In this document: piece after piece, positions 24,225 to 50,720 of the stretch
Position numbering within the stretch: position 1 is the first letter of the stretch
Layout of the letters: each line of letters begins with the position of its first letter
Origin: Olsenella profusa F0195
Lineage (GTDB): Bacteria > Actinomycetota > Coriobacteriia > Coriobacteriales > Atopobiaceae
DNA length: 64,000 bases
Reading direction: 5' to 3'
Assembly (NCBI RefSeq): GCF_000468755.1
Contig: NZ_AWEZ01000062.1
Span: 1 to 64,000 of the forward strand
Notes under the pieces: generated by a model
Seen by the model: the letters and a program-made list of their open reading frames with translations, nothing else
The model's database searches: none
Told to the model about the DNA's origin: nothing
Program-made: the position numbers and the translations under genes

Positions 24225-24262
24225 CGATGCGGCAGGCCCGCGAATGACGTCCGAGGCCTGCA

Positions 24263-24691
24263 TCAGGCTCCCAAGAGCCTTCCCCGTGGACGGAAGTAGG
24301 CAGCCACATCCCAGCCATGGTCGTTGGTCACCATGCCCATGGCCTGGTAGAACGCATTCGCTCGTCCGTCGGCCTCATCGGTCAGGAGCAGGAAGTGAGG
24401 GACCTGCGAGAAGCGCTGGGATGCGTGGGCAAGCAGCGTGCCCCCGATGCCCTGGCGCCAATACGAGGGGTCGACGATAAGGTCCTGGACCAGCACCACA
24501 AACGTCCCATCGCCCACACAGCGTACGAAGCCCGCGAGCCTTCCCCCATCGAAGGCACCCAGCGTATAGAGCGATGCGTCGAGCGCCCTGCCGATGAGGT
24601 CACGCTGTGACAGGTAGTCCTGCCAGCCGTTGCGTCCGTAGATCTCAATCGCCTCAAGCGCACGCTCCGGGCCGAACTCCTGATAATCCAT
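24263..24691 (-). CDS. GNAT-family N-acetyltransferase
   Basis: 142 residues. The acetyl-CoA-binding region is visible as VVLVQDLIVDPSYWRQGIGG (motif A, Q/RxxGxG/A), preceded by LGAFDGGRLAGFVR and followed by ANAFYQAMGM. The acceptor substrate is unknown. It is a single minus-strand gene between two plus-strand genes and reads convergently toward the helicase. Confidence 0.9.
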   Translation of the reverse strand: MDYQEFGPERALEAIEIYGRNGWQDYLSQRDLIGRALDASLYTLGAFDGGRLAGFVRCVGDGTFVVLVQDLIVDPSYWRQGIGGTLLAHASQRFSQVPHFLLLTDEADGRANAFYQAMGMVTNDHGWDVAAYFRPRGRLLGA

Positions 24692-24784
24692 GGGGTCACC
24701 TCTCGTCAGCCATGGGCCTCAGATACGATACAGTCAGCATATCGCACCATTTTCTGCCCCAGAGCCATCTCACGAGGAGGACCC

Positions 24785-25375
24785 ATGCCAGCCAGGCTCA
24801 GGTACGAGACCGCCCGCTACGTCGCCGCCTACGGCACGCCCGAGCAGCTGCCCGAGCCCATCACCCCCGAGGTGGCCTTCGTGGGCCGTTCCAACGTGGG
24901 GAAGTCGTCCCTGCTCAACAAGCTCGTCGGCCGCAAGGCGCTGGCACACGTCTCGAGCCGGCCAGGCAAGACGGCCAACATCAACTTCTATGACGTGGAT
25001 GGCGTGATGTTTGTGGACCTGCCCGGCTACGGCTTCGCCAAGGTCTCCCAGGAGGAGAGGCGGCGATGGGCCAAGCTCATCGCAGGCTACTTCGATCAGG
25101 AACGAAGCTTCAACCTCGTCGTGGCACTCATGGACATCCGCCACGACGCACAGCGGATCGACCTCGAGACCATGGACTTCCTCACGAGCAGGGAGCTGCC
25201 CTTCGTGATTGCCCTCACCAAGGCGGACAAGCTCAACAAGACGAAGCAGGAACGGCAGACCATGCTCTTGGCCAGGCAGCTTGGCGTCGCCCGCTCTCGG
25301 ATGACCGTGACCTCTGCCGAGACGGGCATGGGCATCAAGGACTTGCGCCGCCACATCGAGGGGGCCTGCCTCTAG
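24785..25375 (+). CDS. engB: Ribosome biogenesis GTPase EngB (YsxC/YihA)
   Basis: 196 residues. G1 is GRSNVGKSSLLN near 33, G2 region SSRPGKTANINFY, G3 DLPGYGFA, G4 ALTKADKLNK and G5 VTSAETGMG, all in EngB order and at normal length. EngB is needed for assembly of the large ribosomal subunit. GAGGAGGACCC precedes the ATG. A strong intrinsic terminator follows, so it is a single-gene unit. Confidence 0.96.
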   Translation: MPARLRYETARYVAAYGTPEQLPEPITPEVAFVGRSNVGKSSLLNKLVGRKALAHVSSRPGKTANINFYDVDGVMFVDLPGYGFAKVSQEERRRWAKLIAGYFDQERSFNLVVALMDIRHDAQRIDLETMDFLTSRELPFVIALTKADKLNKTKQERQTMLLARQLGVARSRMTVTSAETGMGIKDLRRHIEGACL

Positions 25376-25406
25376 GCAGGCCCCGTAGATCGCTCATCCA
25401 TAACAA

Positions 25407-25432
25407 GGCGGGCGACCCCATTGTCGCCCGCC
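25407..25432 (+). terminator. Intrinsic-type terminator after engB
   Basis: GGCGGGCGAC (25407-25416), loop CCCATT, GTCGCCCGCC (25423-25432): a perfect 10-bp GC-rich stem starting 31 bp after the stop. The tract behind it (TCACCTCTTCT) is only partly U-rich. Confidence 0.75.
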
Positions 25433-25878
25433 TCACCTCTTCTATCCGTACCTCCTCGGGAAATTCTCTAGCCCTTCGGACTCACTCCCTCACATGAGAA
25501 CTGCCAGCACCTTATCGGTTGGTGCTCCTGCTTGAACGCGAAGGCACCGGTTCTTCCGTCTGTCCCTTGGACTGCTGCGGTGCCTGTACCGCCTACGAGA
25601 CCCTAACGAGTGGTCTGGCTAAAAGAGACGGGACACGCGATGCCATACGCGCAAGCCATCGAATCCGACTCTTCCCTGTCCACTGGCATCACCTCCCCTG
25701 CCGGCCGCTGACTTCGGTGCGGCTCCTTCACCTATGCCCATCATACCCGGTCATGACGTGCGTGCATGCAGCCCTCTCAACCATGTCGCGAGTGGTCGTT
25801 TTTGGGCGCGAACGGCAGGCAGTGCTGAGGGTAGAATGGTCGGATACCGGAATGGATGACGCACGAGCAAGGAAGACC
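25433..25878. other. 446-bp interval without a recognised gene
   Basis: Between the engB terminator and the HelD start no convincing open frame or tRNA is seen. The sequence is less GC-rich than neighbouring genes and has several short inverted pairs, for example GGTGC ... GCACC near 25520-25552 and GCGGT ... ACCGC near 25576-25590. It might hold a structured leader or a small RNA, but it does not match the tmRNA, RNase P or T-box signatures I know. Confidence 0.4.
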
Positions 25879-28077
25879 ATGCCACACGCAAGCCCCCAGA
25901 CCCCCCAGACAAGCCTTGACCCCATCTACCAGGAAGAGCAGGGCCATCTCTCCGACGTGTACCAGAAGCTCCTGGCGCTAAGAGACGAGCTCACGAAACG
26001 CATCGAGGTCGGGCATAAGGCGGCCGCCCGGGATCTGATCAGCATGTCCGAAGAGGTCACCCAGGACTTTGGCGGCGCAGACGAGACCATGGAGACGCTC
26101 GCTGCCATCGAGACGCTCAACTCCGTGATCGATGCCTACAACCAGGCGCACGACTTCGATGTCGAACGCCTGGGCCGTGTGATGCTCCTGCTGAGCCAAC
26201 CGTACTTTGCCAAGGTGCGCCTGCGCATGGCGGCCGACAGAGAGCCACGCGACATATACATCGGAGCCGTGGGCGTGACGGACGAGCACCACACGCCCCT
26301 GGTGGTGGACTGGCGCAACCCCATCGCCGAAACCTACTACAACCAGCAGATGGGCCCCTGCTCCTACATCGTCAACGGCAACGTGCGTACCGCCGAGATG
26401 CTGTTGCGTCGCCAGTTTGACATCACGAAGGACCATCTGAACGGCTACTTTGACACCACGGTCGCCATCCAGGACTCGCTGCTGCTCTCGGCGCTTCGGC
26501 ATGGCCATACCGAGAAGCTCCGCGCCATCACCGCCACCATCCAACGCGAGCAGAACGCCGTGGTACGCCACGAGGACGTGCCCGTGCTGCTTGTGGGCGG
26601 CATCGCCGGCTCGGGCAAGACCTCCGTGCTCCTGCAGCGGGTCGCCTTCCTGCTGTATCAGGAGCGTGGGACGCTTGACGCCAGTCAGCTCTACCTCTTT
26701 ACGCCCAACGACGTGTTCCAGCGCTACATTGACACCGTGCTCCCCTCCCTCGGCGAACGCAACCCCCAGACCTTCACCTGGCGGCAGTTCTTCGAGAGCC
26801 TGGGCCAAGCCGAACGTCCCATGGGCGAGGACACCGACCCCGTCGCCTTCACGCAGCTCGAAGGGGCCCTGCGCACCCTCGAGCTCAATGCGGACGACTT
26901 CAGCGACATCCGCGTGGATGGTCTCACGCTGGTACGGGCTGCGCAGATCAAGCGCAGCTGCGACAAGTTCCCCCGTGCGGCCATGGGCCCTCGGCGCATG
27001 GCGCTCGTGAAGGAGGAGCTGCACGAGAAGCTCGACCGCAAGCTCACGCAGATGGCCAAGGACGAGGATGTGCAGAACGAGCTCTTGGCCCTCGACCTCG
27101 ACGAGCAGCTGCGCATCTTTGGCGAGATGATCGATCCCGACCCGGCAGACCAGAAGAGCGTGATCGCCTTCACGAGGCGCTATGTGGGACACAGGTATGC
27201 CGCGGCGCACGACGTCATCGAATCCAACCAATGGCTGCGCATCGACCACATCGGCCAGCGCATCCTGCACGAGGGGACGCTCACTGCCGTCGAATGGCTC
27301 TACCTCGAGCTGCTGCTGACGGGCGGAACCGCGCGTGATGCCCGCTTCGTGATGGTCGACGAGGTGCAGGACTACGCCGTCGCCCAGCTCATGCTGCTGG
27401 CACGCTACTTCGCCGGTGCGCACTTCCTGCTGCTGGGAGACGAGAACCAGGCCATCCGCGAGGGCACGGCCACGTTCGCACAGATACGCGAGATATTTGA
27501 GCGCACGCATGGCAGCGTGGACGAGCTGAGCCTGCGCACAAGCTATCGCTCGAGCCCCAAGATCACGGAGCTGTTCTCCGGCCTCTTGGACGAGTGCAAG
27601 CGCGGCCAGCCGAGCTCGGTCCAGCGCGACAGTGACGACCCCGTCATACGCTCGTGTCCGTCTGACGGCGAGGGTTACGTGAGGGAGCTGAAGGCACACA
27701 TAGCTGCGGCGCAGGCACGTGTGGGCGAGGCGGCCGCCCGAGGCGAGGACTACCTCGCCGCCGTGATCGCCGCCGACAGGCCTCGCGCCAACTGGCTGCG
27801 CAAGCAGCTGGGCGAGCAGGTGCTTGCGCTGCGCAAGGGCGAGGGGCTTCCCTCCTCGGGTGTTATCCTGCTCGACCTGCATCTTGCCAAGGGTTTGGAG
27901 TTTGACGAGGTCATCGTACCGGATGCGCAGGCAGGGGCCTATCCTGACACACCCCTGGCCCGCCGCAGGCTCTACACCGCCATCAGTCGTGCTATGCACC
28001 GCGTCTGCGTTCTGTCTCAGGGCGCGATGACGCCGCTGCTGGATGGCGTCTCCCACGCGTCGGCTGACAACCGGTAG
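25879..28077 (+). CDS. helD: HelD-like UvrD/SF1-family ATPase (RNA polymerase recycling factor type)
   Basis: 732 residues. An N-terminal helical segment (about 20-60) is followed by the HelD-like region LVVDWRNPIAETYYN, Walker A GGIAGSGKTSVLLQRVAF near 240, Walker B MVDEVQDYAVAQ, motif IV-like SYRSSPKITELF, and LHLAKGLEFDEVIVPDA with YTAISRAMHRV at the C-terminus. HelD proteins bind RNA polymerase and release it from stalled or DNA-bound states by ATP-driven movement. I chose the ATG with AAGGAAG 4 nt upstream; an ATG 27 bp earlier is in frame, and everything before that is non-coding. Confidence 0.9.
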   Translation: MPHASPQTPQTSLDPIYQEEQGHLSDVYQKLLALRDELTKRIEVGHKAAARDLISMSEEVTQDFGGADETMETLAAIETLNSVIDAYNQAHDFDVERLGRVMLLLSQPYFAKVRLRMAADREPRDIYIGAVGVTDEHHTPLVVDWRNPIAETYYNQQMGPCSYIVNGNVRTAEMLLRRQFDITKDHLNGYFDTTVAIQDSLLLSALRHGHTEKLRAITATIQREQNAVVRHEDVPVLLVGGIAGSGKTSVLLQRVAFLLYQERGTLDASQLYLFTPNDVFQRYIDTVLPSLGERNPQTFTWRQFFESLGQAERPMGEDTDPVAFTQLEGALRTLELNADDFSDIRVDGLTLVRAAQIKRSCDKFPRAAMGPRRMALVKEELHEKLDRKLTQMAKDEDVQNELLALDLDEQLRIFGEMIDPDPADQKSVIAFTRRYVGHRYAAAHDVIESNQWLRIDHIGQRILHEGTLTAVEWLYLELLLTGGTARDARFVMVDEVQDYAVAQLMLLARYFAGAHFLLLGDENQAIREGTATFAQIREIFERTHGSVDELSLRTSYRSSPKITELFSGLLDECKRGQPSSVQRDSDDPVIRSCPSDGEGYVRELKAHIAAAQARVGEAAARGEDYLAAVIAADRPRANWLRKQLGEQVLALRKGEGLPSSGVILLDLHLAKGLEFDEVIVPDAQAGAYPDTPLARRRLYTAISRAMHRVCVLSQGAMTPLLDGVSHASADNR

Positions 28078-28261
28078 CCACTCCGTGCCGGAGCCCCGGT
28101 CGAGCGCGCTCCCCGACCTGCTCTGTCCCCATGGCCCCGCCCAAGCGCGGCGCTCGCGCCCGACGCGAGCGCCGCATGCGCTTTGGGTATAAGGCACGCT
28201 GCCACGCGCAGGCCGCTCTGGCTGTCCCCACACGCCCACTGCCATCAAGGGAGTGCACACC

Positions 28262-28867
28262 ATGGCCCATATGGACTACGACAGCGGCAAGGACCGCCTC
28301 GCCGCCTTCTTTGACGCGGTGCTCGCCATCGTCATGACCATCCTCGTGCTGGAGCTGCAGATTCCCAGCCCCATCTCCCTGCAGGGCTTCTGGGGCATCC
28401 GCGACGGCCTGCTCACCTACTTTCTCACCTTCTTCTGGCTGGGAGCGCTGTGGGCCGCTCATCATGCGGAATGGCGCTTCGTGCGCGACATCGACCACGG
28501 CGTCGTATGGTCGATGCTCGTGCTCCTCTTCTTCACATCGCTGTTCCCCTATGCGGCACGCCTGGTCTCCCTCGACTTCTGGTCGCGCTCCGCCCAGGGG
28601 TTCTACGGCATCGTCACCATCTGCACCACGGCCGCCAACATGGCCTCGTATACCTCTATCGTCAGGGCGGACCCAGATAACAACACCCTCAAGCACTATG
28701 TGCACTACAACCGCCAGATGATGCCCATCGACCTCGTCGTCAAGGTCATCGGGCTGGTGGTGACCATGGTCGCCTGGCCGCCCGCCATGATGGTCTCCAC
28801 GCTCGTTGCCGCAGCGTTGGTGCTTTTCTCCCAGGTGCACCATCGCAGAAGCTCACGGCTGCGCTAG
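28262..28867 (+). CDS. TMEM175-family (DUF1211) membrane protein, possible potassium channel
   Basis: 201 residues with about six hydrophobic helices. The first helix carries the family signature RLAAFFDAVLAIVMTILVLE (consensus RxxxFxDxxxAIxxTxLxL), whose Phe and Asp line the pore in bacterial TMEM175. The later helices include GIVTICTTAANMASYTS and VIGLVVTMVAWPPAMM. The start has AAGGGAG 8 nt upstream. It stands alone between HelD and a long hairpin. Channel function is by family only. Confidence 0.85.
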   Translation: MAHMDYDSGKDRLAAFFDAVLAIVMTILVLELQIPSPISLQGFWGIRDGLLTYFLTFFWLGALWAAHHAEWRFVRDIDHGVVWSMLVLLFFTSLFPYAARLVSLDFWSRSAQGFYGIVTICTTAANMASYTSIVRADPDNNTLKHYVHYNRQMMPIDLVVKVIGLVVTMVAWPPAMMVSTLVAAALVLFSQVHHRRSSRLR

Positions 28868-28927
28868 GGGCACAGGGCCCGTGCCTCCCAAACGTGGGAC
28901 AGGGTCTCTGCACCAACCATAGCGAGT

Positions 28928-28975
28928 GCCTCAGACACAGGGCCTTGGCTCGTCCCAAGCCCCTGTGTCTGAGGC
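28928..28975. terminator. Long hairpin, probable bidirectional terminator
   Basis: GCCTCAGACACAGGG (28928-28942) pairs perfectly with 28961-28975, and CTTGG (28944-28948) with CCAAG (28955-28959) extends the stem, giving 20 pairs with small internal bulges. It lies about 60 bp after the TMEM175-like gene. There is no clean U-tract, so factor-dependent or RNA-stabilising action is possible. I see no gene between 28868 and 29255. Confidence 0.5.
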
Positions 28976-29255
28976 CAAGGCAGCTCCCAGAATCTCCTGG
29001 GAAAGGAATCGCATAGCGACCTCTCGACAGTCAGCGTACGAGATTCTGTTCCAGCCATGCCTCCGCATGGCCACGCATGGCAGTGCGGACCTACGTTGGC
29101 GGCACCCGTCGCCGACAGTCGCCCATCTCCCATGCACGGCGCCACCGCTCTGGTATATGTTGGGAGCAGGAGCAATTCTATCGGCCTGAGCACGGAGCGC
29201 ATGCCGTTGGGTCACAGGCGGCCGTTGCGTTCTTGGGCCCATCGAGGAGGCACCC

Positions 29256-30962
29256 ATGCCATCACAGAGCCCCAAGAAGGTTGCGCAGCGGACGAGCGCC
29301 AAGAAGAGGCCTACGAAGAAGCCTGTGAGGGAGAAGTCTCCCCAGGGCAAGCCCACGAGCCCCACATTCGCCGCAGCGGAGAAGGCAGGGGCGCCCACCG
29401 CAGCAGCGGACGAGCGACCCGTCTCCCCTGCCACGGGAAGACCCCAGAAGAGCGAGACGGAGCCCGCCGCCGCCATGCCACCCACAGAGTCTGCCGCACC
29501 CCTTCCCGAGCCACGGCGCAGCATTACCTTCATTGGCTCCGAATGCTGGCCCTTCGTGAAGACCGGCGGCCTCGGGGATGTGATGTATGCCCTGCCCAAG
29601 GCTCTCATCAAGCAAAACTGCGACGTGAAGGTCATCCTCCCCAAGTACGGCTGCATCCCACAGGAGCACAAGGACAGGATGGTCTATCGCGGTTCCTTCG
29701 ACATGGACCTCTGCTCGGACGGGCGCAGGTTCTATGTGGGCATCATGGAGTACGTCTGGGACGGTGTGGTCTATGACTTCCTTGACAACGAGGAGTTCTT
29801 CTCCTGGGGCGATCCCTACACCAACCTCGTCGACGACATTCCCAAGTTCTGCTACTTCGGCAAGGCGGCGCTCGCGGCCCTGCTCTACATGGACTGGATT
29901 CCCGACGTCATCCACTGCCATGACTGGCAGGCGTCACTCGTTCCCATCTACCTGTGTACGCTCTTTGCCGGCACACGGCTCGCAGGCGCCAAGTCCATCC
30001 TCACGATTCACAACCTGCGCTTCCAGGGCAAGTACAACATCCCCACCCTCAAGTACTGGACGGGCCTGCCGGATTCCGCCTTCACCATGGGTGCCCTCCA
30101 GGAGCGGTGGACCGAGGCCAACATGCTCAAGGGCGGCATCGCGTACGCCGACACGGTCACCACGGTGAGCGGTACCTACGCCGGAGAGATCCAGACGCCC
30201 GAGTATGGCGAGGGGCTCGACGAGCACCTGCGCTTCCACTCGTACAAGCTGCGGGGCATCGTCAACGGCATCGACTGCGGCGTCTGGGATCCCGCGCGGG
30301 ACGAGAGGATCGATGCGCCGTACGATGCCTCCAGCGTGATCGAACGCAAGAAGGAGAACAAGCGCGCGCTGCAGGAGGAGCTCGGCCTCGAGCAGGACGA
30401 CGACAAGATGGTCATCGGCCTCATCTCACGCCTCACGAGCCAGAAGGGCCTCGACCTCGTCAACGCCATCGTGCCACAGCTCGTTGACGGCAACACGCAG
30501 CTCGTGTTCCTCGGAACGGGCGAGAGGCAGTACGAGGACTCGTTCCACTACTACGAGGGAGCCTACCGCGGCACCATATGCTCCAGCATCATGTACGACG
30601 AGACCAGATCGCATAGGGTCTATGCTGGCAGTGATGCGCTGCTGGTGCCGTCGCGCTTTGAGCCCTGCGGCCTCACGCAGCTCATCGCCATGCACTATGG
30701 AACCATCCCCATCGTACGGGAGACGGGCGGCCTCAAGGACACCGTCGAGCCCTATAACAGGTTCAGCAACAGGGGCAATGGCTTCACGTTCGACCGCTAT
30801 GACGCCGGCCTGCTGCTCGACACCATAAACCGAGCCAAGACGCTGTACTTCACCAATCGCTGGCGCTGGGATGAGATGGTCCGGCGTGACATGGCCAAGG
30901 ACGTCTCGTGGGAGAGCTCTGCCGCGCAATACCGCGCACTCTACCTGGAGCTCACGCAGTAG
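29256..30962 (+). CDS. glgA: Glycogen synthase GlgA with long N-terminal extension
   Basis: 568 residues, about 90 more than typical GlgA. Residues 1-88 are a Lys/Pro/Ala-rich low-complexity tail (KKVAQRTSAKKRPTKKPVRE). The GT5 catalytic domain starts at SITFIGSECWPFVKTGGLGD, where KTGGLGD is the ADP-glucose-binding loop. Further family motifs are HCHDWQASLVPIYL, TIHNLRFQGKYN, GLISRLTSQKGLDL and PSRFEPCGLTQLIAMHYGT. It extends alpha-1,4-glucan from ADP-glucose. GAGGAGG precedes the ATG. The extension may serve in localisation or binding of polymer; nothing shows which. Confidence 0.95.
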   Translation: MPSQSPKKVAQRTSAKKRPTKKPVREKSPQGKPTSPTFAAAEKAGAPTAAADERPVSPATGRPQKSETEPAAAMPPTESAAPLPEPRRSITFIGSECWPFVKTGGLGDVMYALPKALIKQNCDVKVILPKYGCIPQEHKDRMVYRGSFDMDLCSDGRRFYVGIMEYVWDGVVYDFLDNEEFFSWGDPYTNLVDDIPKFCYFGKAALAALLYMDWIPDVIHCHDWQASLVPIYLCTLFAGTRLAGAKSILTIHNLRFQGKYNIPTLKYWTGLPDSAFTMGALQERWTEANMLKGGIAYADTVTTVSGTYAGEIQTPEYGEGLDEHLRFHSYKLRGIVNGIDCGVWDPARDERIDAPYDASSVIERKKENKRALQEELGLEQDDDKMVIGLISRLTSQKGLDLVNAIVPQLVDGNTQLVFLGTGERQYEDSFHYYEGAYRGTICSSIMYDETRSHRVYAGSDALLVPSRFEPCGLTQLIAMHYGTIPIVRETGGLKDTVEPYNRFSNRGNGFTFDRYDAGLLLDTINRAKTLYFTNRWRWDEMVRRDMAKDVSWESSAAQYRALYLELTQ

Positions 30963-30987
30963 ACGGCATCCCGTGGCCGCACAAAGG

Positions 30988-31017
30988 CCCCGCATCGCAT
31001 GCTCGCGATGCGGGGCT
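30988..31017. terminator. Intrinsic terminator shared by glgA and the ancestral tRNA-Phe
   Basis: GCCCCGCATCGC (30988-30999), loop ATGCTC, GCGATGCGGGGC (31006-31017): a perfect 12-bp stem followed by TGTCGTTTCT on the plus strand and CTTTG on the minus strand. It lies just past the displaced 3' end of tRNA-Phe, so before the element inserted it probably ended the tRNA transcript too. Confidence 0.85.
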
Positions 31018-31025
31018 GTCGTTTC

Positions 31026-31070
31026 TGGTGGCGGGGAAGGGAATCGAACCCCTGACACGGGGATTTTCAG
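31026..31070. repeat. attL: displaced 3' fragment of tRNA-Phe
   Basis: The 45 bp is identical to 51103-51147 and runs from the CCA end to the anticodon loop of tRNA-Phe (CTGAAAATC on the minus strand). Identity stops sharply at 31071. The fragment has no 5' half and cannot make a tRNA. The original tRNA terminator lies just beyond it, at 30988-31017. Confidence 0.92.
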
Positions 31071-31230
31071 CGCTTTCGTCCACCATCCCAGGATTTGCCA
31101 TCCTAGCTGCCCAAAGCCAAGCCGCGAACCAGGATGCCAGATCAGCCGGTAGAGTACTTGGGCACATTTCCTACACTCAGCTCATATCACATCCATTCCA
31201 TGCATAACTCTCCCTGTCTTCCCCAGTCCT

Positions 31231-31261
31231 GCGCGCGTCACGCACCCAGCGTGACGCGCGC
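31231..31261. repeat. Perfect hairpin in the integrase upstream region
   Basis: GCGCGCGTCACGC (31231-31243), loop ACCCA, GCGTGACGCGCGC (31249-31261). It lies in the 250-bp gene-free stretch between attL and the integrase gene. It could insulate the integrase from read-through from glgA or be an arm-type protein site; there is no U-tract. Confidence 0.6.
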
Positions 31262-31321
31262 CTTGTGCCTATGATGCATGTGAGTGGATGTTCCATGCAT
31301 GCCTTGGGAGGGAGCGAGGGA

Positions 31322-32578
31322 ATGGGGGCCATGAGGGACTACTCGTCCGGCACCGTACGCAAGATGAGGGGCAGGTGGCAGTGCGTCCTGCGCTACCGGG
31401 AGGGCGGCGAGTGGAGGACGGTGACGAGCATGACGGACGTCCCCTGCCCTGCGGGGGACGAGGGGAGGCGCGCGGCCGAGGAGAGGCTGAGGCGGTGGCG
31501 CGACTCCCTCATAGTCGAGGAGACGGCCCGCGTGGTCGCGGCCCGCTACGAGGCGAAGCTCTCCTCCCTCGCGAGCGGCCAGCCGACGGGTGGCGCCCTC
31601 TCGGAGCCCTTCGCCGACTACGCCGTGGCGTACGTCGAGGCGGACCACGTGAGCCGGAGGACGGGGAGGCCGATCGAGGAGTCCACCAGGGCCCAGTACC
31701 TGGGACTCGTCAGGAACTGCATGGTTCCCGCCCTCGCGGAGGGCGTGACGGTCGCCGGCGTGACCCCCGGGATGGTGGAGGGCGCCCTCGTCTCCCTCCA
31801 GAGCCGCGGGCTGTCGGCCTCGACGGTGAGGAAGGCCTTCAACCTCATGTCCTCCGTCTTCGCCCACGCCTGCTCCTGCGACGGGCTGGCGAGGAACCCC
31901 TGCGAGGGCCTCCGTGCGCCCAGCCCCGGCAGGCCACGCCTGAACTCGCTGGCGGTCGCGGACGCCGACCGCCTCGCACGGGAGCTCTCGGAGATGGCCC
32001 CGACGAGGGGCGTCGCGGCAGCGCGGATCGTCCTGGCCTGCGGCCTCAGGGAGGGCGAGCTCGCCGGCCTGCAGCTCGGCGACATAGACCGGGAGAGGAC
32101 GGGGTGCCTGCACGTCGAGAGGGCGATCGGCTCGTCCAAGGGGCGCGGCAGGACCTACGTCAAGCCGCCGAAGTCCTCCGCGGGGACGCGGCAGATCCCC
32201 CTCAACGGCGAGCTGCGCTCGGCCATCCATGACGCGACCGCGACGCTCACGGCGGCCTGCGAGCGCGAGGGCGTCCCGCTCTCCGACGGGCTCTACCTCC
32301 TCGGGCACGTCGACGGCACGTGGACGTCCCCCACGAGCCTCGGCAGGGAGTGGGCCGCCGTCTCGCGCTCGCTCGGGCTCGTCGGCCTCGCCGGCAAGGG
32401 CGTGACGCTCCACGACCTGCGGCACACCTTCGCCACCTGCGCGCTCGCGCGTGGGGCCAGAGTCAAGGACGTGCAGGCGATCCTCGGGCACAGCTCCGCC
32501 CAGATGACGCTCGACGTCTACGCCTCCTCCGACCCGGCGGAGCGGGCCAGGACGATGGGGGAGATCAGCCGGCTGTAG
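31322..32578 (+). CDS. Tyrosine-recombinase integrase of the element
   Basis: 418 residues. The N-terminal arm-binding domain begins YSSGTVRKMRGRWQCVLRYR, and a core-binding SAM-like domain spans about 95-190. The catalytic residues are Arg243 in ACGLREGELAGL, His-x-x-Arg in LHDLRHTFAT, His in ILGHSSAQMT and Tyr in LDVYASSD. It sits beside attL, as usual for tRNA-integrating elements, and should recombine in the tRNA-Phe anticodon-stem region. The start (ATG after GGGAGGGAGCGAGG) is chosen for its ribosome site. Codons 220-245 are also present as an exact inverted copy just after the stop, see the inverted-repeat entry. Confidence 0.93.
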   Translation: MGAMRDYSSGTVRKMRGRWQCVLRYREGGEWRTVTSMTDVPCPAGDEGRRAAEERLRRWRDSLIVEETARVVAARYEAKLSSLASGQPTGGALSEPFADYAVAYVEADHVSRRTGRPIEESTRAQYLGLVRNCMVPALAEGVTVAGVTPGMVEGALVSLQSRGLSASTVRKAFNLMSSVFAHACSCDGLARNPCEGLRAPSPGRPRLNSLAVADADRLARELSEMAPTRGVAAARIVLACGLREGELAGLQLGDIDRERTGCLHVERAIGSSKGRGRTYVKPPKSSAGTRQIPLNGELRSAIHDATATLTAACEREGVPLSDGLYLLGHVDGTWTSPTSLGREWAAVSRSLGLVGLAGKGVTLHDLRHTFATCALARGARVKDVQAILGHSSAQMTLDVYASSDPAERARTMGEISRL

Positions 32579-32666
32579 GGGCGGGCCCGCCCTCCCTGAG
32601 GCCGCAGGCCAGGACGATCCGCGCTGCCGCGACGCCCCTCGTCGGGGCCATCTCCGAGAGCTCCCG
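31979..32666. repeat. Perfect 79-bp inverted repeat flanking the integrase catalytic core
   Basis: Positions 31979-32057, inside the integrase coding sequence and including the codon of catalytic Arg243, are repeated exactly but inverted at 32588-32666, ten bases after the stop codon. Base-by-base comparison shows no mismatch, and identity ends abruptly on both sides. The 530-bp segment between the arms encodes the rest of the catalytic domain. Inversion would leave a 252-residue protein ending GGPAPTAG without the His-x-x-Arg and Tyr. Confidence 0.92.
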
Positions 32667-32752
32667 GGGTCGCAGTGGCCACGTCCCATGCCCACGGTGG
32701 ACCCCGGATGTCACCACCCGCCCGTCGCGATCATGCCCCGTGGGGCCCGATG

Positions 32753-33106
32753 CTAGCCTTCGGATGAAATCGCAGGATGTGCGGGGTGAAACCTCTCCAA
32801 GGTCGCGAAGTCCTGCGCGGTCGCGAGGAGCGTGTCCCTCCGCTCCTCGCTGCATGCGTCCCAGCAGTCAAGGAGTTCTGCTCGCTTGGGATCTGTGACT
32901 ACATGAGGGGAATGGTCACGACCCACCAGTTCATCGAGGGTACAGTCAAATTCGTCCGCAAAGTCACATGCCCGCTCAAGAGAGAAGACATGCTTGCCCT
33001 GTTCGTAGTCGGTATACGTGGGCAGCGGTATGTTCATATGCTCCGCGAATGCCCTTGCTGATTTATAGCCGGCCTTTTTCCTCAACTCTTGCAGCCTTGT
33101 CTTCAC
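32753..33106 (-). CDS. XRE-family regulator of the element
   Basis: 117 residues. HTH at about 3-58 (LQELRKKAGYKSARAFAEHM, PLPTYTDYEQGKHVFSLERA). The C-terminal half, DPKRAELLDCWDACSEERRD, resembles that of the next XRE gene (DPYQAELNRCWNAMGERRKA), so the two are paralogues. It has its own good promoter next to a large inverted repeat. It probably keeps the transfer or excision genes silent in the integrated state. The region 32667-32752, downstream, holds no gene. Confidence 0.88.
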   Translation of the reverse strand: MKTRLQELRKKAGYKSARAFAEHMNIPLPTYTDYEQGKHVFSLERACDFADEFDCTLDELVGRDHSPHVVTDPKRAELLDCWDACSEERRDTLLATAQDFATLERFHPAHPAISSEG

Positions 33107-33149
33107 ACGGGATCCAATCGAAAGAATTTAGGCTTTGCTCATGAAAAAA

Positions 33150-33228
33150 ATTATGGGCTGCCCCTCATGCGTTGACAATAATGACTAAAGCATTAATATT
33201 GTTGTTGACATTAATGCTTTAGTCATTA
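33150..33228 (-). promoter_or_regulatory. Promoter of an XRE gene with adjacent paired operators
   Basis: On the minus strand TTGTCA (33178-33173), 17 bp, CATAAT (33155-33150) reads toward the XRE gene. Touching the -35 box are two perfect 19-bp inverted arms, TAATGACTAAAGCATTAAT at 33179-33197 and its complement at 33210-33228, 12 bp apart. Each arm has its own AATG...CATT symmetry. The region is very AT-rich. On the plus strand a weaker promoter (TTGACA at 33172-33177, AATATT at 33195-33200) overlaps the first arm, so the site may control both directions. Confidence 0.7.
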
Positions 33229-33269
33229 AAACCACTACGTCAGGAATCTAGAAATCAAAGAGCCTTAGG

Positions 33270-33620
33270 TTACGCAACTCCTTCCCCCAGGGAATTACGT
33301 TGTGCATCCCCCCGTTCTGCCATGACGGCATCCCTTGCGGTCACAAGAAGCGCAGCCTTTCGTCGCTCTCCCATGGCGTTCCAGCATCGGTTGAGTTCCG
33401 CTTGGTATGGATCCTCGTAGATCTTCTTAGTATTGTGGCCGGCTATTTCATCAATCGAACAGCCAAGTACCTCTGCGCATTCATAGGCTTGTGCCAAGCT
33501 GATCGAATGTGCCCCTCTTTCCCAAGCCCCATATGTGCGCCAGTCGACGTTTAGCTTCTCTGCCATGACCCGCTGCGTGAGGCCTCTTTCCTTCCTGATC
33601 CTTTTCAGCTGCAGGCTCAT
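33270..33620 (-). CDS. XRE-family regulator of the element, paralogue of the preceding one
   Basis: 116 residues. HTH at about 3-60 (LQLKRIRKERGLTQRVMAEK, LNVDWRTYGAWERGAHSIS). A conserved C-terminal part is shared with the XRE protein at 32753-33106. AGGAGAGAAC precedes the ATG. It is transcribed away from the operator-bearing promoter of the divergent XRE gene, in the manner of a phage-like switch. Confidence 0.88.
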   Translation of the reverse strand: MSLQLKRIRKERGLTQRVMAEKLNVDWRTYGAWERGAHSISLAQAYECAEVLGCSIDEIAGHNTKKIYEDPYQAELNRCWNAMGERRKAALLVTARDAVMAERGDAQRNSLGEGVA

Positions 33621-33678
33621 GTTCTCTCCTCGTCATGGAATCCTGTAATGAAAGTTATCAGAGGAGAGTTTTTTGGTC

Positions 33679-33707
33679 TTGAAATACTCTTTTAAAGAGT
33701 TTAATAT
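33679..33707 (+). promoter_or_regulatory. Promoter with an operator palindrome in its spacer
   Basis: TTGAAA (33679-33684), 17 bp, TAATAT (33702-33707), 37 bp before a divergent XRE gene. The 15-bp palindrome ACTCTTTTAAAGAGT (33686-33700) fills the spacer almost exactly, so a bound dimer would block polymerase. This is the likely start of the plus-strand regulatory, replication and perhaps transfer transcript. Confidence 0.7.
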
Positions 33708-33744
33708 GTGTAAAACTACTTATAGGAGTTTTTAGGAGCAACTA

Positions 33745-34017
33745 ATGTCATGGAATCAAGGCCTATTCTCTCGGCGTTTGAAACTACTGCGCATCAGTAA
33801 GGGGTTAAGCCAGGCGCGCCTCGCCGGTCTCGCTGGGGTGTCCCAGTCGACACTGAATAAATGGGAATTAGGTCTGTCGATCCCCTCCTTGGACAGAGCA
33901 TTCGAAGTTGCCGAATCCCTTGGGTGCTCTCTTGCTCTTTTGTGCGGAGAGGGCTCTCTTGATGAGGCGTTTGCCTCCATGGCAAGTGGAGTAGGTGGCC
34001 ATCATGCAGACGACTAG
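33745..34017 (+). CDS. XRE-family regulator, first gene of the element's plus-strand operon
   Basis: 90 residues, nearly all HTH: FSRRLKLLRISKGLSQARLA, LAGVSQSTLNKWELGLSIPS, then AFEVAESLGCSLALLCGEG. AGGAG is 7 nt before the ATG. It is divergent from the XRE gene at 33270-33620 with a shared 124-bp AT-rich control region. A pair of opposing XRE proteins at the head of an element usually forms a lysogeny-like switch; that is inference from layout. Confidence 0.88.
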   Translation: MSWNQGLFSRRLKLLRISKGLSQARLAGLAGVSQSTLNKWELGLSIPSLDRAFEVAESLGCSLALLCGEGSLDEAFASMASGVGGHHADD

Positions 34018-34162
34018 GGAACCGATGAGCTGGGTCGTGACCATCGCCGCCGAGGCCCAGCCCGTCCGCAGGACCGGCAGGGAGAGGTGCAGGCCCAGGG
34101 CCTGCTACAGCGTGGACCTCTCCGACCTCCTGGCGCGGGCGCATGGGGGTGACGAGCGATGA
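34004..34162 (+). CDS. 52-residue protein with C-terminal YSVDLSDLL motif
   Basis: Starts inside the end of the XRE gene (14-bp overlap) and ends in the start of the next gene (ATGA overlap). AGGTGG lies 6 nt before its ATG. The sequence is basic in the middle (RRTGRERCRPRAC) and ends YSVDLSDLLARAHGGDER. The nine residues YSVDLSDLL recur near the end of the excisionase-like protein of this element. The overlaps on both sides strongly suggest that it is translated. No family recognised. Confidence 0.6.
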   Translation: MQTTREPMSWVVTIAAEAQPVRRTGRERCRPRACYSVDLSDLLARAHGGDER

Positions 34163-34863
34163 CCGCCCGCGAGCAGGCCGTGGGGCGCGTGCGTAAGCTC
34201 CTCGAGCTAGGCAGGGGAAACTCCAGCGCCCAGGAGGCCACGGCGGCGGTCCTGGCCGCCCAGCGGCTCATCGTGCGGTATGGCATTGGTGATGACGAGC
34301 TGAGGGACACGAATGACGACGTGCGCATCGTGCAGATGCGCACCCGACCGCTCAGCGACTTCAGGACGTGGAGGTGGCCCCTCGCCGTCCTGGTCGCGAG
34401 GTCGTTCAGATGCAGGTTCTGGCAGGACGAGGCCCGCAGGGGCGCCCGACGCCTCCCCGCCTTCGTCTTCTATGGCTACGAGCTCGACGCCCAGGCCGCC
34501 ATGCTGGCGTACGATCGCCTCTACGCGACGGGCAACAGGCTCGCGAGGAGGCGCGTGCGCGCCCTGGCGGCCCGTGCGTCGACCACAGGGGCCTACAACT
34601 CCTACATCACGGGCTTCCTCAGGGGTGTCACGGACGAGCTAGAGAGGCAGTCGAGGGAGCTCATGGTCGTGGTTCCCAGGTCCGTGTCGGACAGGTACGA
34701 GGCCGAAGTGGAGCCCTGCCTCCGTGACGCCAGGGTGCGAGGCCTCTCGTGCGACATGAGGATGGAGGGGCTCATCCGGCGGGGGATCGAGGACGGTCGC
34801 GATGCCGTGAGATCACGACGCCTGGGCAGCCGTCCGGCCCTGGACGGGCACGGGGAGGGGTGA
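34159..34863 (+). CDS. DUF2786-domain protein of the element
   Basis: 234 residues. The N-terminus (EQAVGRVRKLLELGRGN, SAQEATAAVLAAQRLIVRYG) is the DUF2786 helical motif found in phage and mobile-element proteins. The rest contains PLAVLVARSFRCRFW and AYNSYITGFLRGVTDELERQ, common to longer DUF2786 proteins of unknown function. No enzymatic motif is visible. It overlaps the preceding small gene by 4 bp. Confidence 0.8.
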   Translation: MTAREQAVGRVRKLLELGRGNSSAQEATAAVLAAQRLIVRYGIGDDELRDTNDDVRIVQMRTRPLSDFRTWRWPLAVLVARSFRCRFWQDEARRGARRLPAFVFYGYELDAQAAMLAYDRLYATGNRLARRRVRALAARASTTGAYNSYITGFLRGVTDELERQSRELMVVVPRSVSDRYEAEVEPCLRDARVRGLSCDMRMEGLIRRGIEDGRDAVRSRRLGSRPALDGHGEG

Positions 34864-34877
34864 CGGCCATGGGCGCC

Positions 34878-35126
34878 TCACCCCCCGTACCTCTCGGCGA
34901 GGGCGATCAGCTCGTCCACGGTGCACCCCATCGCATGCGCTATGGCATGGACCTTCTTGACCTGGGGGTCGTCTATCTTGGAGTTCATGAGCATCGACAT
35001 GTAGCCATCGGAGAGGCCGGTCGCCCGGCACAGCTCCGCCTGGGTGACCCCAGCCTCCCTCGCCTTGTCCCTGATGGCGCGACCTATGTCCATGCCATGT
35101 CCTCTCTTCGCCGTGCGGGTGCCCAT
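34878..35126 (-). CDS. Small XRE-family regulator
   Basis: 82 residues. HTH GRAIRDKAREAGVTQAELCR, ATGLSDGYMSMLMNSKI, then VHAIAHAMGCTVDELIALAE. A GGGAGGTGA is 6 nt before the first ATG; a second ATG at residue 12 is also plausible. It is the only minus-strand gene in this part and faces the DUF2786 gene; it is divergent from the next regulator-like gene, again a possible switch pair. Confidence 0.87.
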   Translation of the reverse strand: MGTRTAKRGHGMDIGRAIRDKAREAGVTQAELCRATGLSDGYMSMLMNSKIDDPQVKKVHAIAHAMGCTVDELIALAERYGG

Positions 35127-35252
35127 GGTGGGTCACCTCCCATTCTAGGGCATTCCATGGACGAAGAAAGTCCGTCCAATCCTCAATGAATTGAGGTATC
35201 ATCGTGACAGAAGCTAAGCCAGTTTAGGATTGTGCGCACCGGGGTGGTTCCC

Positions 35253-35519
35253 ATGAAGGAGATAGAGACGCTCGAGGGATACGTGGCTGCCCGCTGTGCC
35301 GAGCGGGGCACGAAGAGGAAGGACCTTGCGGCGCTCCTGGGCATCAGCTCGACCTGGACCCTGAGGAGGAAGCTGAGGGGCGAAAGCCCCCTCTACCTCA
35401 AGGAGAGCAAGAGGCTTGCCGACTACCTCGGGATCACCGTGGAGGAGCTCATCGACTCCTTCCTCGATTCAGCCCCAGACGACGGCACCGTTGGCGAGGG
35501 TGGCGGATATGACACATGA
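35253..35519 (+). CDS. Small HTH-like regulator
   Basis: 88 residues starting MKEIETLEGYVAARCAERGT. The middle, KRKDLAALLGISSTWTLRRK followed by SKRLADYLGITVEELIDS, fits an XRE-like helix-turn-helix of the phage-repressor type. GGGGTGG is 6 nt before the ATG; a start 21 bp earlier is possible. It overlaps the excisionase-like gene by 11 bp, so the two are coupled. Confidence 0.75.
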   Translation: MKEIETLEGYVAARCAERGTKRKDLAALLGISSTWTLRRKLRGESPLYLKESKRLADYLGITVEELIDSFLDSAPDDGTVGEGGGYDT

Positions 35520-35829
35520 CATCCCGACCATGACCACTGGCGACCTCCTCGGCCTCCCACCCCTCATCAGGCCGGCGACCGCGGCGCGCATCGCCGCCGT
35601 GTCCGAGGAGACCATCGTCCGGCTCTGCAGGCGCGGGGCCATCAGGGCCGGCAAGGTGGGCGGCCGCTGGCGCGTCAACACCGCCGCGTTCCTCGCCTAC
35701 GTCGGCGTGGTCGCCGACGCGGCGGGCGGGCCCATGGCGGAGGGGGCGCCCGAGGCGGGCGGCCCGCTCCCGGGCCGCTACTCGGTGGACCTCTCCGACC
35801 TGCTGGGAGGTGAGGGACTGCATGGATGA
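35509..35829 (+). CDS. Excisionase-like HTH protein
   Basis: 106 residues. The segment RPATAARIAAVSEETIVRLC, RRGAIRAGKVGGRWRVNTAA is the MerR-like HTH of the excisionase/helix-turn-helix_17 family, in which a small winged domain binds and bends DNA. It could be the recombination directionality factor of the integrase, although it is 3 kb away. The C-terminus carries GRYSVDLSDLLGGEGLHG, sharing YSVDLSDLL with the 52-residue protein. It overlaps the next gene by 8 bp. Confidence 0.75.
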   Translation: MTHDIPTMTTGDLLGLPPLIRPATAARIAAVSEETIVRLCRRGAIRAGKVGGRWRVNTAAFLAYVGVVADAAGGPMAEGAPEAGGPLPGRYSVDLSDLLGGEGLHG

Positions 35830-36988
35830 CGGATGCACCGCCGTCGAGGACGGCCTCTCGGTCGTCGTGCACGAGTGGATGTGGTCCGGGGACGGCCTCG
35901 CGCTGGCGCCGGGGCCCGAGCTCATGGTCTACGCCCTCGTCTACCAGGTGACGGCCCACGGCCTCGGCGGCCTCTACGCCTCGAACTCGGCCCTGGCGGC
36001 GTCCCTCGGCCTGAGGCGCGAGACCGTGAACCGCGCCCTCAGGCGCCTGGGTGACGAGGGGCTGGTCTACGTCTGCGGCAGGGCCCAGGGGTCTCACGGC
36101 GGGATCCCCGTCAAGGTGTGGGCGACCTGCCAGCCCCCGGTCGACCGCGCCGTGAGGGGGCTCCGCCCTAGGGCCGCCGCCCAGCTCGGCGGAGCGCCGG
36201 AGGGGGTTTTCGACAGCGGCGGGCGTCCCGGCGCGGCGGAGGGGGGAGTTTTCGACAGCGGCGGCGCCCCCAATGTGACCGGGAGTCACATTGGGCCCTC
36301 CCAATGTGATCGAGAGTCACATTCCCAATGTGACCGAGATGCCAATGTGACCGAGGGTCACATTGGGAAACACCCCGCCACAACAGGCGAAACGGCACTT
36401 TTCGACAACGCCTCTCCTAGTCCTAGTCCTAGCGTTAGAAACAACAAGGACAAGGACGGGGACGCCCCACGGCCACTCACAGGCGAGGAGGGCCGTGCCT
36501 TCGCGCTCCTCTGGTCCATGAACCGGCGGAAGCCGAAGCCGGGCTTCGAGGCCTCGGACCGCGGCGAGGCGCTCGACGCCTGGCGCGAGGCGCTCGGGCG
36601 GCGGCTCACGCCGGACGTGCTCCTCGCGGCCTACCGCTCCTACTCCGGATGGCTCGACGACCTGAGGGCCCGGACGGGACGGTTCCCCGTCAAGTCCCTC
36701 GCGTCCTGGCTCCACGAGGGGGCGGACAACAAGTTCGTCGCCGCCGCCTGCGACGACGCCGCGGACCGGAGGGCACGGGAGGCCGTCGAGGTCAGGCGCC
36801 ACGGCCGCCCCGTCGTGACGCTCGGGCGGACCGCCGAGGGCGACTGGGTCTGGTCGGCCCCCGGCCACGCCGTCTCCTACGTGGCCCAGGGCGGCGGCAG
36901 GGGCATGACGAGGGAGCAGGCGATGGAGTCCGTCCGCAGGGAGGCGGGCACGGGCGTCATCTTCGAGGACGAGGAAGTGGAGGAGTAG
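35822..36988 (+). CDS. Replication-initiator-like protein with N-terminal winged helix
   Basis: 388 residues. Residues about 25-95 form a winged helix (GGLYASNSALAASLGLRRET, NRALRRLGDEGLVYV), as in plasmid and phage replication proteins. A low-complexity middle (about 115-225) is where the DNA carries iteron-like dyads. The C-terminal part (RAFALLWSMNRRKPKPGFEA, FPVKSLASWLHEGADNK) is typical of element-encoded replication or helicase-loader proteins. GGAGGTGA precedes the ATG. It may allow the excised circle to replicate. No polymerase or Rep endonuclease motif is visible, so the role is inferred. Confidence 0.65.
   Translation: MDDGCTAVEDGLSVVVHEWMWSGDGLALAPGPELMVYALVYQVTAHGLGGLYASNSALAASLGLRRETVNRALRRLGDEGLVYVCGRAQGSHGGIPVKVWATCQPPVDRAVRGLRPRAAAQLGGAPEGVFDSGGRPGAAEGGVFDSGGAPNVTGSHIGPSQCDRESHSQCDRDANVTEGHIGKHPATTGETALFDNASPSPSPSVRNNKDKDGDAPRPLTGEEGRAFALLWSMNRRKPKPGFEASDRGEALDAWREALGRRLTPDVLLAAYRSYSGWLDDLRARTGRFPVKSLASWLHEGADNKFVAAACDDAADRRAREAVEVRRHGRPVVTLGRTAEGDWVWSAPGHAVSYVAQGGGRGMTREQAMESVRREAGTGVIFEDEEVEE
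36270..36366. repeat. Iteron-like cluster of AATGTGAC dyads inside the rep-like gene
   Basis: Three 21-bp dyads of the form AATGTGAYCGRGRGTCACATT start at 36272, 36303 and 36344, with a further half-site (AATGTGACCGAGATG) at 36327. The dyad arms match exactly. They are read as protein in the low-complexity middle of the rep-like product (NVTGSHIG, QCDRESHS, NVTEGHIG). Clusters of this kind bind replication initiators or repressors. Two copies of TTTTCGACAGCGGCGG lie just upstream. Confidence 0.8.
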
Positions 36989-36991
36989 GAC

Positions 36992-37747
36992 ATGGCGACA
37001 GACGCGGGAGAGGAAAGCGTCGACCGGGCCACCCGCCTCATGGGTGAGCTGTTGAGGCTGCGCAGGGAGTACGACACGAGGCGCCAGGCGGGAGCCCGCG
37101 CCGGACGGGAGGAGGGGGCCCATGCCGGGGCCAGGCCCGTGGCCCAAGGCGGGACGGGCACCCGTCCCGCCACGGAACGCCAGGTCGCGTTCATAGACAG
37201 GCTGGTCGGACGCGGCGAGATAGACCCGGAGGAGGTCGCCTCCCTCGGCAGCAATCCGACCGTGGCCCAGGCGAACGCCCTGTTGAACGCCCATCGGGAG
37301 GCAGCGGGATACCTCGACCTGCACCGCGCGGGTGCCACGTCGAGGGCGGCGATCCGCTACGACGTGGGCGACCCCGCCGACGCGGCCTGGATATCGGAGC
37401 AGATGCGCATGCGGGGCGTCGACTGCGTCGTCGGCGAGGGGACCTCGGAGGTCCTCTACATGGACGCGGACGGCCGCGGCACCGACGCCCTGCGGGAGAT
37501 GGCCGACGGCCTGCGACACGAGCTCGATGCCATGGACGGCACCCATGACGGCCCCGTCGAGAGCGGGGTGGAGGACCAGGGGCGCGGCACGGAGGGACCC
37601 ACCCCCGAAGGCGGCGGGGGGCGCGACTACACGTTCGAGGAGGTCGCCAGCGAGTGCGAGCGGGAGTCGGCGCGCATGGCCGCCTCCATGGAGCATGACA
37701 TGGCACGCGCGGTGCCCACGGCGCTGCCCACCGAGAGGTCCCGATAG
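36992..37747 (+). CDS. Hypothetical protein of the transfer operon
   Basis: 251 residues. The segment ATERQVAFIDRLVGRGEIDP followed by NPTVAQANALLNAH resembles the short Q-x3-I-x-L ... A-x2-LI helical motif common in mobile-element proteins. It is followed by a mixed alpha/beta part (AAWISEQMRMRGVDCVVGEG) and an acidic tail. Function unknown. It is 3 bp after the rep-like gene and directly before VirD4, so it may be a relaxosome or coupling accessory. Confidence 0.65.
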   Translation: MATDAGEESVDRATRLMGELLRLRREYDTRRQAGARAGREEGAHAGARPVAQGGTGTRPATERQVAFIDRLVGRGEIDPEEVASLGSNPTVAQANALLNAHREAAGYLDLHRAGATSRAAIRYDVGDPADAAWISEQMRMRGVDCVVGEGTSEVLYMDADGRGTDALREMADGLRHELDAMDGTHDGPVESGVEDQGRGTEGPTPEGGGGRDYTFEEVASECERESARMAASMEHDMARAVPTALPTERSR

Positions 37748-39733
37748 ATGGGCGGGAAGCGACACTCCAGGATCGTCGCGGCCGCGGCCGCCTCCTCCCT
37801 CGCACTCGCCTACCTCGGCGACCGATGGGGCGAGCTGGTGGAGGCCCTGGGAGGGCCGTCATCGGCCCTCGTGGCGACCCTCCGGCTCCCGTCCGCCATC
37901 CTCGCGCTCCCCCTCCACGTCTCGGACGCGCCGATCGCCCTGCTCGCAGGCATAGTGGGGTTCTCCCTGCCCTGGGTCGTGGCGTCCCTCGGCCTCGACG
38001 AGAGGGCGCAGACCCTCTCCGGCAGGGAGTATGGCAGCGCGCGCCGCGGCAGGCTGTCGGACGGGCGCGGGTTCGCGGACACGCGTGACCCCCGCAACAA
38101 CACGATCCTGACCAGGCACCTCGGCATCGCCACCTCGGAGTCGCCCGGCGTCAGGCGGGCCCTCCCCAACCGCAACGTCCTCGTCATCGGGGGGCCTGGC
38201 TCGGGAAAGACGGCGAGGTTCGTGGAGCCGAACGTCCTGCAGCTCGGGGACCAGGACATCGTCGTCACCGACACGAAGGGGATGACGCTGCGCCGCTGCG
38301 GCCAGGCGCTCGCCGAGGCCGGCTGCGACATACGGGTCTTCAACACCGTCGACCAGGGCATGAGCGACCAGTTCAACCCCTTCGCGATGATCCGCGGCCA
38401 CGCGGACATCCCGAAGGTGGCGAGGGCCATCATCGACAACACGAACGGCGGGAGGAGGAGCAGGGAGCCCATCTGGGACAATGGCGAGGAGCTCCTGCTC
38501 GAGACGGCCCTGACGCTCCTCTACGACTGGTTCCCGCCGGAGAACCTGACCATGGCGAACGTCATCCACGTCATAGACATGATCGAGATCGACGACGAGG
38601 GCCACCGTGGGCCCTGCCCGCTCGAGGTGCTCCTGGGGCAGATCGAGACCGGCCGCGCGCCCGCCGAGGAGCCTCCCGCGCTCGCGGGAGGCGCCCCACG
38701 CCCGCGCCAGGGCGACCTGGTCCCATCGAGGCTCGTGCGCCGCGATGGGGTGCGTGCGGCAGGATGGGTTGACGCCGGTGGCAGGGCGCGCGTGGGGCTC
38801 ACCACGTCCGAGGACAGGACTCTGGAGCTCTGGCACGAGTTCAACAGCGGCGCCGCACGTACGCTCAGGAGCTTCCTCATCTCCATCCACACGAGGCTCG
38901 CGCAGATCAACCAGGAGGGCGTGCTGGGCATCCTCGCCTCCGAGAACGGACGCGACGACATGGACTTCGAGCACCTCGGGTGTGGCGAGCGCCGCCGGGT
39001 GACCTTCATCATCACGAGCGACTACGACACCAGCCTGAACGCGCTCCTAGCGCTCGTCACCTGGCAGGCCGCCAGCCTCCCTGTGCGCCATGCGGACGCC
39101 ACCACGGGCAGCCTGCCCCGTCCCGTCCACCTCGTCTTCGACGAGTTCAGGAACATAGGCAGGCTGCCGAACTTCCCGGGCATGATCTCGACGGTGCGCA
39201 GCCGCAACATCTCGATCTCGGTGATCCTGCAGGACCTCTCGCAGCTCGTCGAGGTCTATGGGGAGCATGACTCCGACGCCATCCGGGCATGCTGCACGAC
39301 CCTCCTCTACCTCTCGGGATCCACCTCCCTCGCGACCGCCAAGCCCCTCTCCGAGGAGTTCGGCACGCGGACCATCACCAAGCTGAGCTCCAACACCACG
39401 CCGGGAACCCTGCTCCCCACCACCTCTCGCGGGAGGGACGTCATCGGCCGCGCGGTCTACACCCCCGACGAGATCATGGGGCTCGCCCGCGACCGCGCCC
39501 TCGTGAGGTTCGCGGGCGAGCCCGTGATAGAGGATGCCAAGTCCGCCGTGTGGGAGCACCCGCTCTACGACGATCGCTACATGTTCCGGCCCGGCCGCGC
39601 ACCGAAGGGGGCCCGTTACTTCGACTACGTGGCATGGCGCGCCGCCGGGCGCCCCACCGGGGCGGCCGCTGCGAGATGGGCCGACGCCTACTGGTCCTCG
39701 CGCGAATACGAGGGAGGAGGAGCGATGACGTAG
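37748..39733 (+). CDS. VirD4/TraG-type coupling ATPase
   Basis: 661 residues. Two N-terminal membrane segments (about 9-25 and 48-81) are followed by Walker A GGPGSGKT (148-155), DIVVTDTKGMTLRR, and Walker B VHLVFDEFRNIGRLPNFPG. It is a membrane-bound hexameric ATPase that hands the relaxase-DNA complex to the transfer channel. The start is immediately after the previous stop. The length and motif spacing are normal for the Gram-positive VirD4 class. Confidence 0.93.
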   Translation: MGGKRHSRIVAAAAASSLALAYLGDRWGELVEALGGPSSALVATLRLPSAILALPLHVSDAPIALLAGIVGFSLPWVVASLGLDERAQTLSGREYGSARRGRLSDGRGFADTRDPRNNTILTRHLGIATSESPGVRRALPNRNVLVIGGPGSGKTARFVEPNVLQLGDQDIVVTDTKGMTLRRCGQALAEAGCDIRVFNTVDQGMSDQFNPFAMIRGHADIPKVARAIIDNTNGGRRSREPIWDNGEELLLETALTLLYDWFPPENLTMANVIHVIDMIEIDDEGHRGPCPLEVLLGQIETGRAPAEEPPALAGGAPRPRQGDLVPSRLVRRDGVRAAGWVDAGGRARVGLTTSEDRTLELWHEFNSGAARTLRSFLISIHTRLAQINQEGVLGILASENGRDDMDFEHLGCGERRRVTFIITSDYDTSLNALLALVTWQAASLPVRHADATTGSLPRPVHLVFDEFRNIGRLPNFPGMISTVRSRNISISVILQDLSQLVEVYGEHDSDAIRACCTTLLYLSGSTSLATAKPLSEEFGTRTITKLSSNTTPGTLLPTTSRGRDVIGRAVYTPDEIMGLARDRALVRFAGEPVIEDAKSAVWEHPLYDDRYMFRPGRAPKGARYFDYVAWRAAGRPTGAAAARWADAYWSSREYEGGGAMT

Positions 39734-50660: not shown

Positions 50661-50720
50661 CGGCTGCCGCGGCAGCCGGTGGTTTGTACGTACGCCCCAA
50701 GGGGCGTACGTACAAACCAC
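50661..50720. repeat. Two adjacent perfect palindromes upstream of the mobilisation genes
   Basis: CGGCTGCCG/CGGCAGCCG (50661-50678) abuts a 42-bp palindrome (50679-50720) with 20-bp arms, the left one GTGGTTTGTACGTACGCCCC, and only AA between the arms. Such near-zero-loop palindromes can extrude as cruciforms. Their place 260-310 bp before the small mobilisation gene suits oriT or a relaxosome binding site. Confidence 0.9.

Follow-up and report, generated by a model that had tools for sequence, protein, structure and literature searches.

An exact 79-bp inverted copy of integrase DNA in a putative conjugative element of Olsenella profusa, probably the scar of a replication template switch

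The window, a stretch of 64,000 nucleotides from the genome of Olsenella profusa F0195 (contig NZ_AWEZ01000062.1, positions 1 to 64,000), carries between 31026 and 51147 a segment of about 20 kb that gene content, att repeats and an empty site lead us to regard as a probable integrative conjugative element with a tyrosine integrase. Its genes code for a coupling protein, a VirB4-like ATPase, a relaxase, a NikA-like protein and Xre-type regulators, with Pfam matches to Phage_integrase, Relaxase, T4SS-DNA_transf and P-loop_TraG. The 3' part (51103-51147) of a tRNA-Phe gene on the minus strand (51103-51178), recognized by ARAGORN, by att identity and by the empty site, forms attR, and the same stretch is present as the 45-bp core of attL at 31026-31070. 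In another genome of the same species, G109, the tRNA-Phe site is uninterrupted, giving a precise empty site, and its flanks match window positions 23990-31070 and 51103-58066 at 99.5 and 99.6%, respectively. The att identity and the empty site with matching flanks therefore indicate a unit of 20,077 bp integrated in tRNA-Phe. Near attR, a perfect 27-bp inverted repeat with a 52-base spacer (50774-50879) and an 18-bp palindrome (50661-50678) were also observed.

The integrase gene (Pfam Phage_integrase, E 4.7e-16) lies on the plus strand at 31331-32578 and codes for 415 amino acids when read from its ATG at 31331; a GTG further upstream, at 31265, is a possible alternative start. Its open frame carries R240, H361, R364, H387 and Y397 in their usual motifs, which we take to be the catalytic residues. 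The frame is intact in the integrated element, the att core being located upstream of the gene, and the surrounding element has the look of an ordinary integrative conjugative element. A convergent gene for an Xre-type regulator follows on the minus strand (32753-33106; Pfam HTH_3, E 2.2e-7). Further along, two perfect 19-bp inverted arms separated by 12 bases (33179-33228) overlap promoter-like sites, predicted on either strand next to the Xre-type genes, and look like a candidate regulator operator.

The longest exact inverted match at the locus is 79 bp long and links the integrase gene to the DNA just behind it. Arm 1 (31979-32057, plus strand) lies within the gene; arm 2 (32588-32666, minus strand), its exact reverse complement, adjoins the regulator gene and starts at the tenth base past the integrase stop codon TAG (32576-32578). 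The spacer of 530 bp (32058-32587) contains the catalytic part of the integrase, the stop codon and nine more bases. At 98% identity the repeat extends to 87 bp (31979-32065 and 32580-32666) with two mismatches. Arm 1 includes the first catalytic Arg codon, AGG at 32048-32050, numbered residue 240 if counted from the ATG (31331) and 262 if counted from the GTG (31265). The original prediction, made by reading the DNA without database searches, had described an exact 79-bp inverted copy including this codon, beginning 10 bases past the stop and enclosing a middle of 530 bp. The exact match and its coordinates bear this out; the Arg codon is inside the arm as claimed, but the number 243 given to it hinges on the start codon chosen (240 or 262). 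The repeat is a real feature and stands out in the DNA of its own species: in 438 kb (the window, 100 kb more of its contig, and thirteen 20-kb pieces and one 14-kb piece from the same-species genome), no more than two further perfect inverted repeats of at least 25 bp with a spacer of at most 3 kb were found, one of 30 bp and one of 27 bp.

Two other sources of arm 2 were considered. The genome is a draft of 73 contigs, which would leave room for an assembly artefact built from chimeric reads; however, arm 2 is inside a 165-kb contig, away from its ends, and the repeat, at 79 bp shorter than usual sequencing reads, is easy to span, so that we regard an artefact as extremely improbable. Arm 2 might also be the last remnant of a second, oppositely oriented integrase copy, and it does fall, in frame, within an ORF on the minus strand (32565-32855). 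Open frames are frequent in DNA as GC-rich as this region. Against such an origin, a protein search gave integrase similarity only for residues 216-244 (32583-32669), that is the arm itself, and the DNA flanking arm 2 on its outer side (32660-32760) is single-copy in its own genome and unmatched in five others. Since none of the six genomes holds another match to this flank, arm 2 looks like an isolated patch, and its descent from a second integrase gene is very improbable.

The consequences of an inversion between the arms were computed. A flip of the 530-bp middle would give a 249-aa product ending in GGPAPTAG and devoid of the later H, R, H and Y residues, in agreement with the claim that it joins the Arg to GGPAPTAG and a stop, with loss of the rest of the active site. 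The flip would also lengthen the minus-strand ORF at 32565-32855 to 262 aa by adding the integrase's catalytic part, placing the catalytic half in frame with an ORF on the strand of the convergent regulator. Such a product is what would be wanted of a reversible lock, in which inversion of the middle, by homology or through a recombinase, would toggle the integrase between off and on and be maintained by selection. The assembly shows only one orientation of the 530-bp segment, which speaks against this reading.

The same repeat was sought in relatives. All integrase loci returned by protein-query searches were tested, 48 with the window included, which is not a random sample; 23 of them lie on the minus strand, and only exact inverted matches were counted, from the stop codon onward. 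Between gene and downstream flank the match is 79 bp in the window and at most 13 bp (median 10) at the 47 others, of which 44 have at least 1000 bases of downstream sequence and the remaining three 449, 206 and 20. Against the upstream flank, the same 47 loci give at most 15 bp (median 11). Some loci are near-identical (L008/L128, L011/L133, L021/L022 and L135/L136/L137), leaving about 42 distinct ones. The nearest integrase, in genome G031, shares 55% of residues; its longest exact inverted match is 12 bp, and no imperfect two-arm repeat was found there either. When imperfect two-arm repeats were looked for in 22 loci, only L094 and, weakly, L155 had any.

Locus L094 (genome G040 of the same family, contig 38) deserves separate mention. 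Between positions 2360 and 6235, inverted repeats of 98 bp at 94% (62 bp exact), 89 bp at 90% and 94 bp at 84% link hsdS-like genes on opposite strands, and a second recombinase-like gene (3682-4485) lies between these genes, all names being read from translations alone. This is likely a type I restriction shufflon beside a related integrase. Partial alternative modules with a recombinase lying between them are thus features of L094; the window locus has neither the modules nor the recombinase.

Relatives of the element backbone were reached through the VirB4-like ATPase, which has a match at E 1e-150 or better in 77 of 392 genomes, its own included. The surroundings were examined in five of these 77; their VirB4 proteins are 53-64% identical to that of the window over the aligned part, and three of the elements carry an integrase (L155, L156 and L158), L155 and L156 being near-identical over 10 kb (98.6%) and hence roughly one locus. 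An inverted copy of integrase DNA was found in none of the five backbone-related elements; a single weak repeat in L155 (52 bp, 77%) spans 13 kb between its arms and falls outside the integrase match of that locus. In a DNA search of 140 genomes of the family and 395 of the order (overlapping sets that include the genome itself, two candidates being scored in most genomes in the first search), the sole full-length integrase match among those listed was that of G031, at 65% of bases. Among the matches listed, arm 2 had one outside its own genome, 47 bases at 83% on contig 3 of G031. This candidate second arm was rejected: it lies inside another integrase gene (173905-175113) and reflects homology to arm 1. 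In genome contigs and viral contigs, the integrases retrieved were all at 25-35% identity; every match among phage and plasmid proteins was below 60%, and a 41-base arm pattern had no match in viral contigs.

The search for the same repeat in related elements, by which the original prediction proposed to check its lock, was thus negative at the 47 other integrase loci and in the three integrase-carrying backbone relatives. What had been named there as refuting a lock, a single orientation ever being seen together with absence of the second arm from sister elements, is borne out by half: the arm is absent from relatives, but these are all distant (nearest integrase 55% of residues), and the single orientation is that of the assembly. 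A role of the arm as recombination site for the element's own integrase was considered and rejected: its similarity does not rise above that of shuffles, 282 of 300 of which score equally high against the att core and 280 of 300 against the att region. The same comparison counts against the lock. With one orientation, an arm absent in relatives and no likeness to the att core, the reversible lock has gained no positive evidence.

Known invertible loci offer partial precedents. In pneumococcus, the 85-bp inverted repeat of spnIII, of nearly the same length as that of the window, is described as recombining independently of RecA and of CreX loss; knockouts of other known site-specific recombinases changed nothing, and the mechanism is called unknown by the authors (PMC6620402). 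The same source cites RecA-independent recombination in E. coli for direct repeats, the lengths being 80 and 200 bp in cells that lack single-strand exonucleases. However, the repeats of spnIII share a 10-bp recombinase consensus, so the precedent is not purely homology-driven, and they shuffle hsdS specificity domains, whereas a flip in the window would only truncate the integrase. A second partial gene copy with another module, as in hsdS-type systems, is not present here, the copy being of 79 bp only.

Invertons and intragenic inversions resemble the window in that inverted repeats flank a coding segment whose flip alters the protein, and one group of gut invertons is enriched near genes for tyrosine recombinase, relaxase and MobC, the recombinase being possibly under inverton control (PMC11892184). 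Yet invertons are described in the same account with repeats of 10-40 nt. The window has the flanking inverted repeats, but its arms are longer, at 79 bp, it shows one orientation, no invertase site was found in it, and the repeat is not conserved at the loci tested. The suicidal (SSV-type) integrases of archaea are comparable in that a rearrangement would split the integrase and detach its catalytic part, but theirs, as portrayed in the source, carry att within the gene and are split by integration (PMC8371274), while in the window the att core (31026-31070) is upstream, outside the gene, and the frame is intact. No phase-variable or invertible integrase was found in the literature as judged by titles and abstract openings, which does not prove absence. 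By analogy with spnIII and with the gut invertons near tyrosine recombinases, flipping at some rate is possible. Inversion maintained by selection as an off/on device is improbable.

An indication of how arm 2 arose comes from the inner ends of the arms. A perfect 12-bp palindrome (GGCGAGCTCGCC, 32054-32065) stands at the inner end of arm 1 and a perfect 14-bp palindrome (GGGCGGGCCCGCCC, 32579-32592) at that of arm 2. The two are in exact register with the arms, the sum of their centres equalling that of paired arm ends (64645), and they are the sole perfect palindromes of at least 12 bp within 31790-37777; palindromes of this size make up 1.9% of the integrase gene. Past the 79 bp, both mismatches fall at symmetrical positions inside the palindrome. 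Reverse-complement repeats and perfect hairpin stems are described as outcomes of a single template-switch event (PMC8794818), and the features looked for in such events, a reverse-complement copy near its source and an inner switch point at a palindrome, are both present. We consider it probable that arm 2 is a one-time inverted duplication produced by replication template switching at a palindrome. With palindromes in register at the inner ends of both arms, this origin fits better than a reversible lock, and what the original prediction had offered as its alternative has become the preferred reading.

In the proposed course of events, a nascent strand past the integrase stop would have stalled in the GC palindrome at 32579-32592 and re-annealed to the matching palindrome at 32054-32065 inside the gene. 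It would then have copied about 80 bases of integrase DNA backwards before going back to its own template, and flipping or an RNA hairpin, if either occurs, would follow passively from the copy. We infer the stall, the switch and the return, and with them the origin of arm 2, since neither a sister with an alignable 3' flank nor a pre-event sequence was found in the 140 family and 395 order genomes or in the five backbone relatives. Either the strand switch was guided by two similar palindromes already in place, or copying went on through the palindrome, with later correction to symmetry; both routes, which we put forward as possibilities, are replication errors at a palindrome.

Some qualifications apply to the template switch. 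If the copy truly spans 87 bp, palindromes and copy are in part not independent evidence. A length of 79 bp is perhaps long for template switches of the quasi-palindrome type. The absence of differences between the arms (0 of 79) bounds their divergence below 3.7% at 95%, and the two genomes of the species differ by about 0.4-0.5% on the flanks of the element. Perfect arm identity is no proof of youth, nor does it separate a scar from a switch, because frequently inverting arms would also stay identical. The window agrees with the template-switch mutations described in PMC8794818 in having a nearby reverse-complement copy attributable to one event, here with one end at a palindrome, and differs from those set out there in that source and copy are 530 bp apart and that no ancestor was found.

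A template-switch origin can be combined with an effect at the RNA level. In this model, integrase mRNA reaching past the stop would pair arm 2 with arm 1 in a stem of about 80 bp, at which RNase III would cut or ribosomes would slow, keeping expression low. The predicted fold of 31950-32700 has a long unbroken stem joining the arms and a folding energy of -528.7 kcal/mol, against a shuffle mean of -403.1 (sd 7.2, n=20; z -17.4). The strength of this fold is, however, due to the inverted copy itself, and any inverted copy would fold likewise; moreover, such a copy is absent at the other integrase loci tested, and there is no Rfam match within 31000-34000. A terminator scan of 31000-33800 gave a single site, at 31002-31014, and none near arm 2. 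A precedent is icaR, the 3'-UTR of which pairs with the Shine-Dalgarno region of its own mRNA and creates an RNase III substrate (PMC3868564). The pairing of an mRNA with its own 3' part is common to both, but in icaR, as presented in that work, the ribosome-binding site is covered by a short motif, with regulation tested, while in the window the pairing is with coding sequence and is predicted only. An RNA brake of this kind is unlikely.

A scar of this origin might nevertheless have turned into a working brake. The arms would then flip the catalytic 530 bp without a dedicated recombinase, or the hairpin would silence the mRNA, and in some cells the element could not excise. We give this only a slim chance. 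If flipping were true, it would provide a self-contained, recombinase-free means to park a conjugative element. If arm 2 is a scar, as seems probable, the locus offers, within a bacterial mobile element, a clear natural candidate for a long template switch whose anchors are two matching palindromes.
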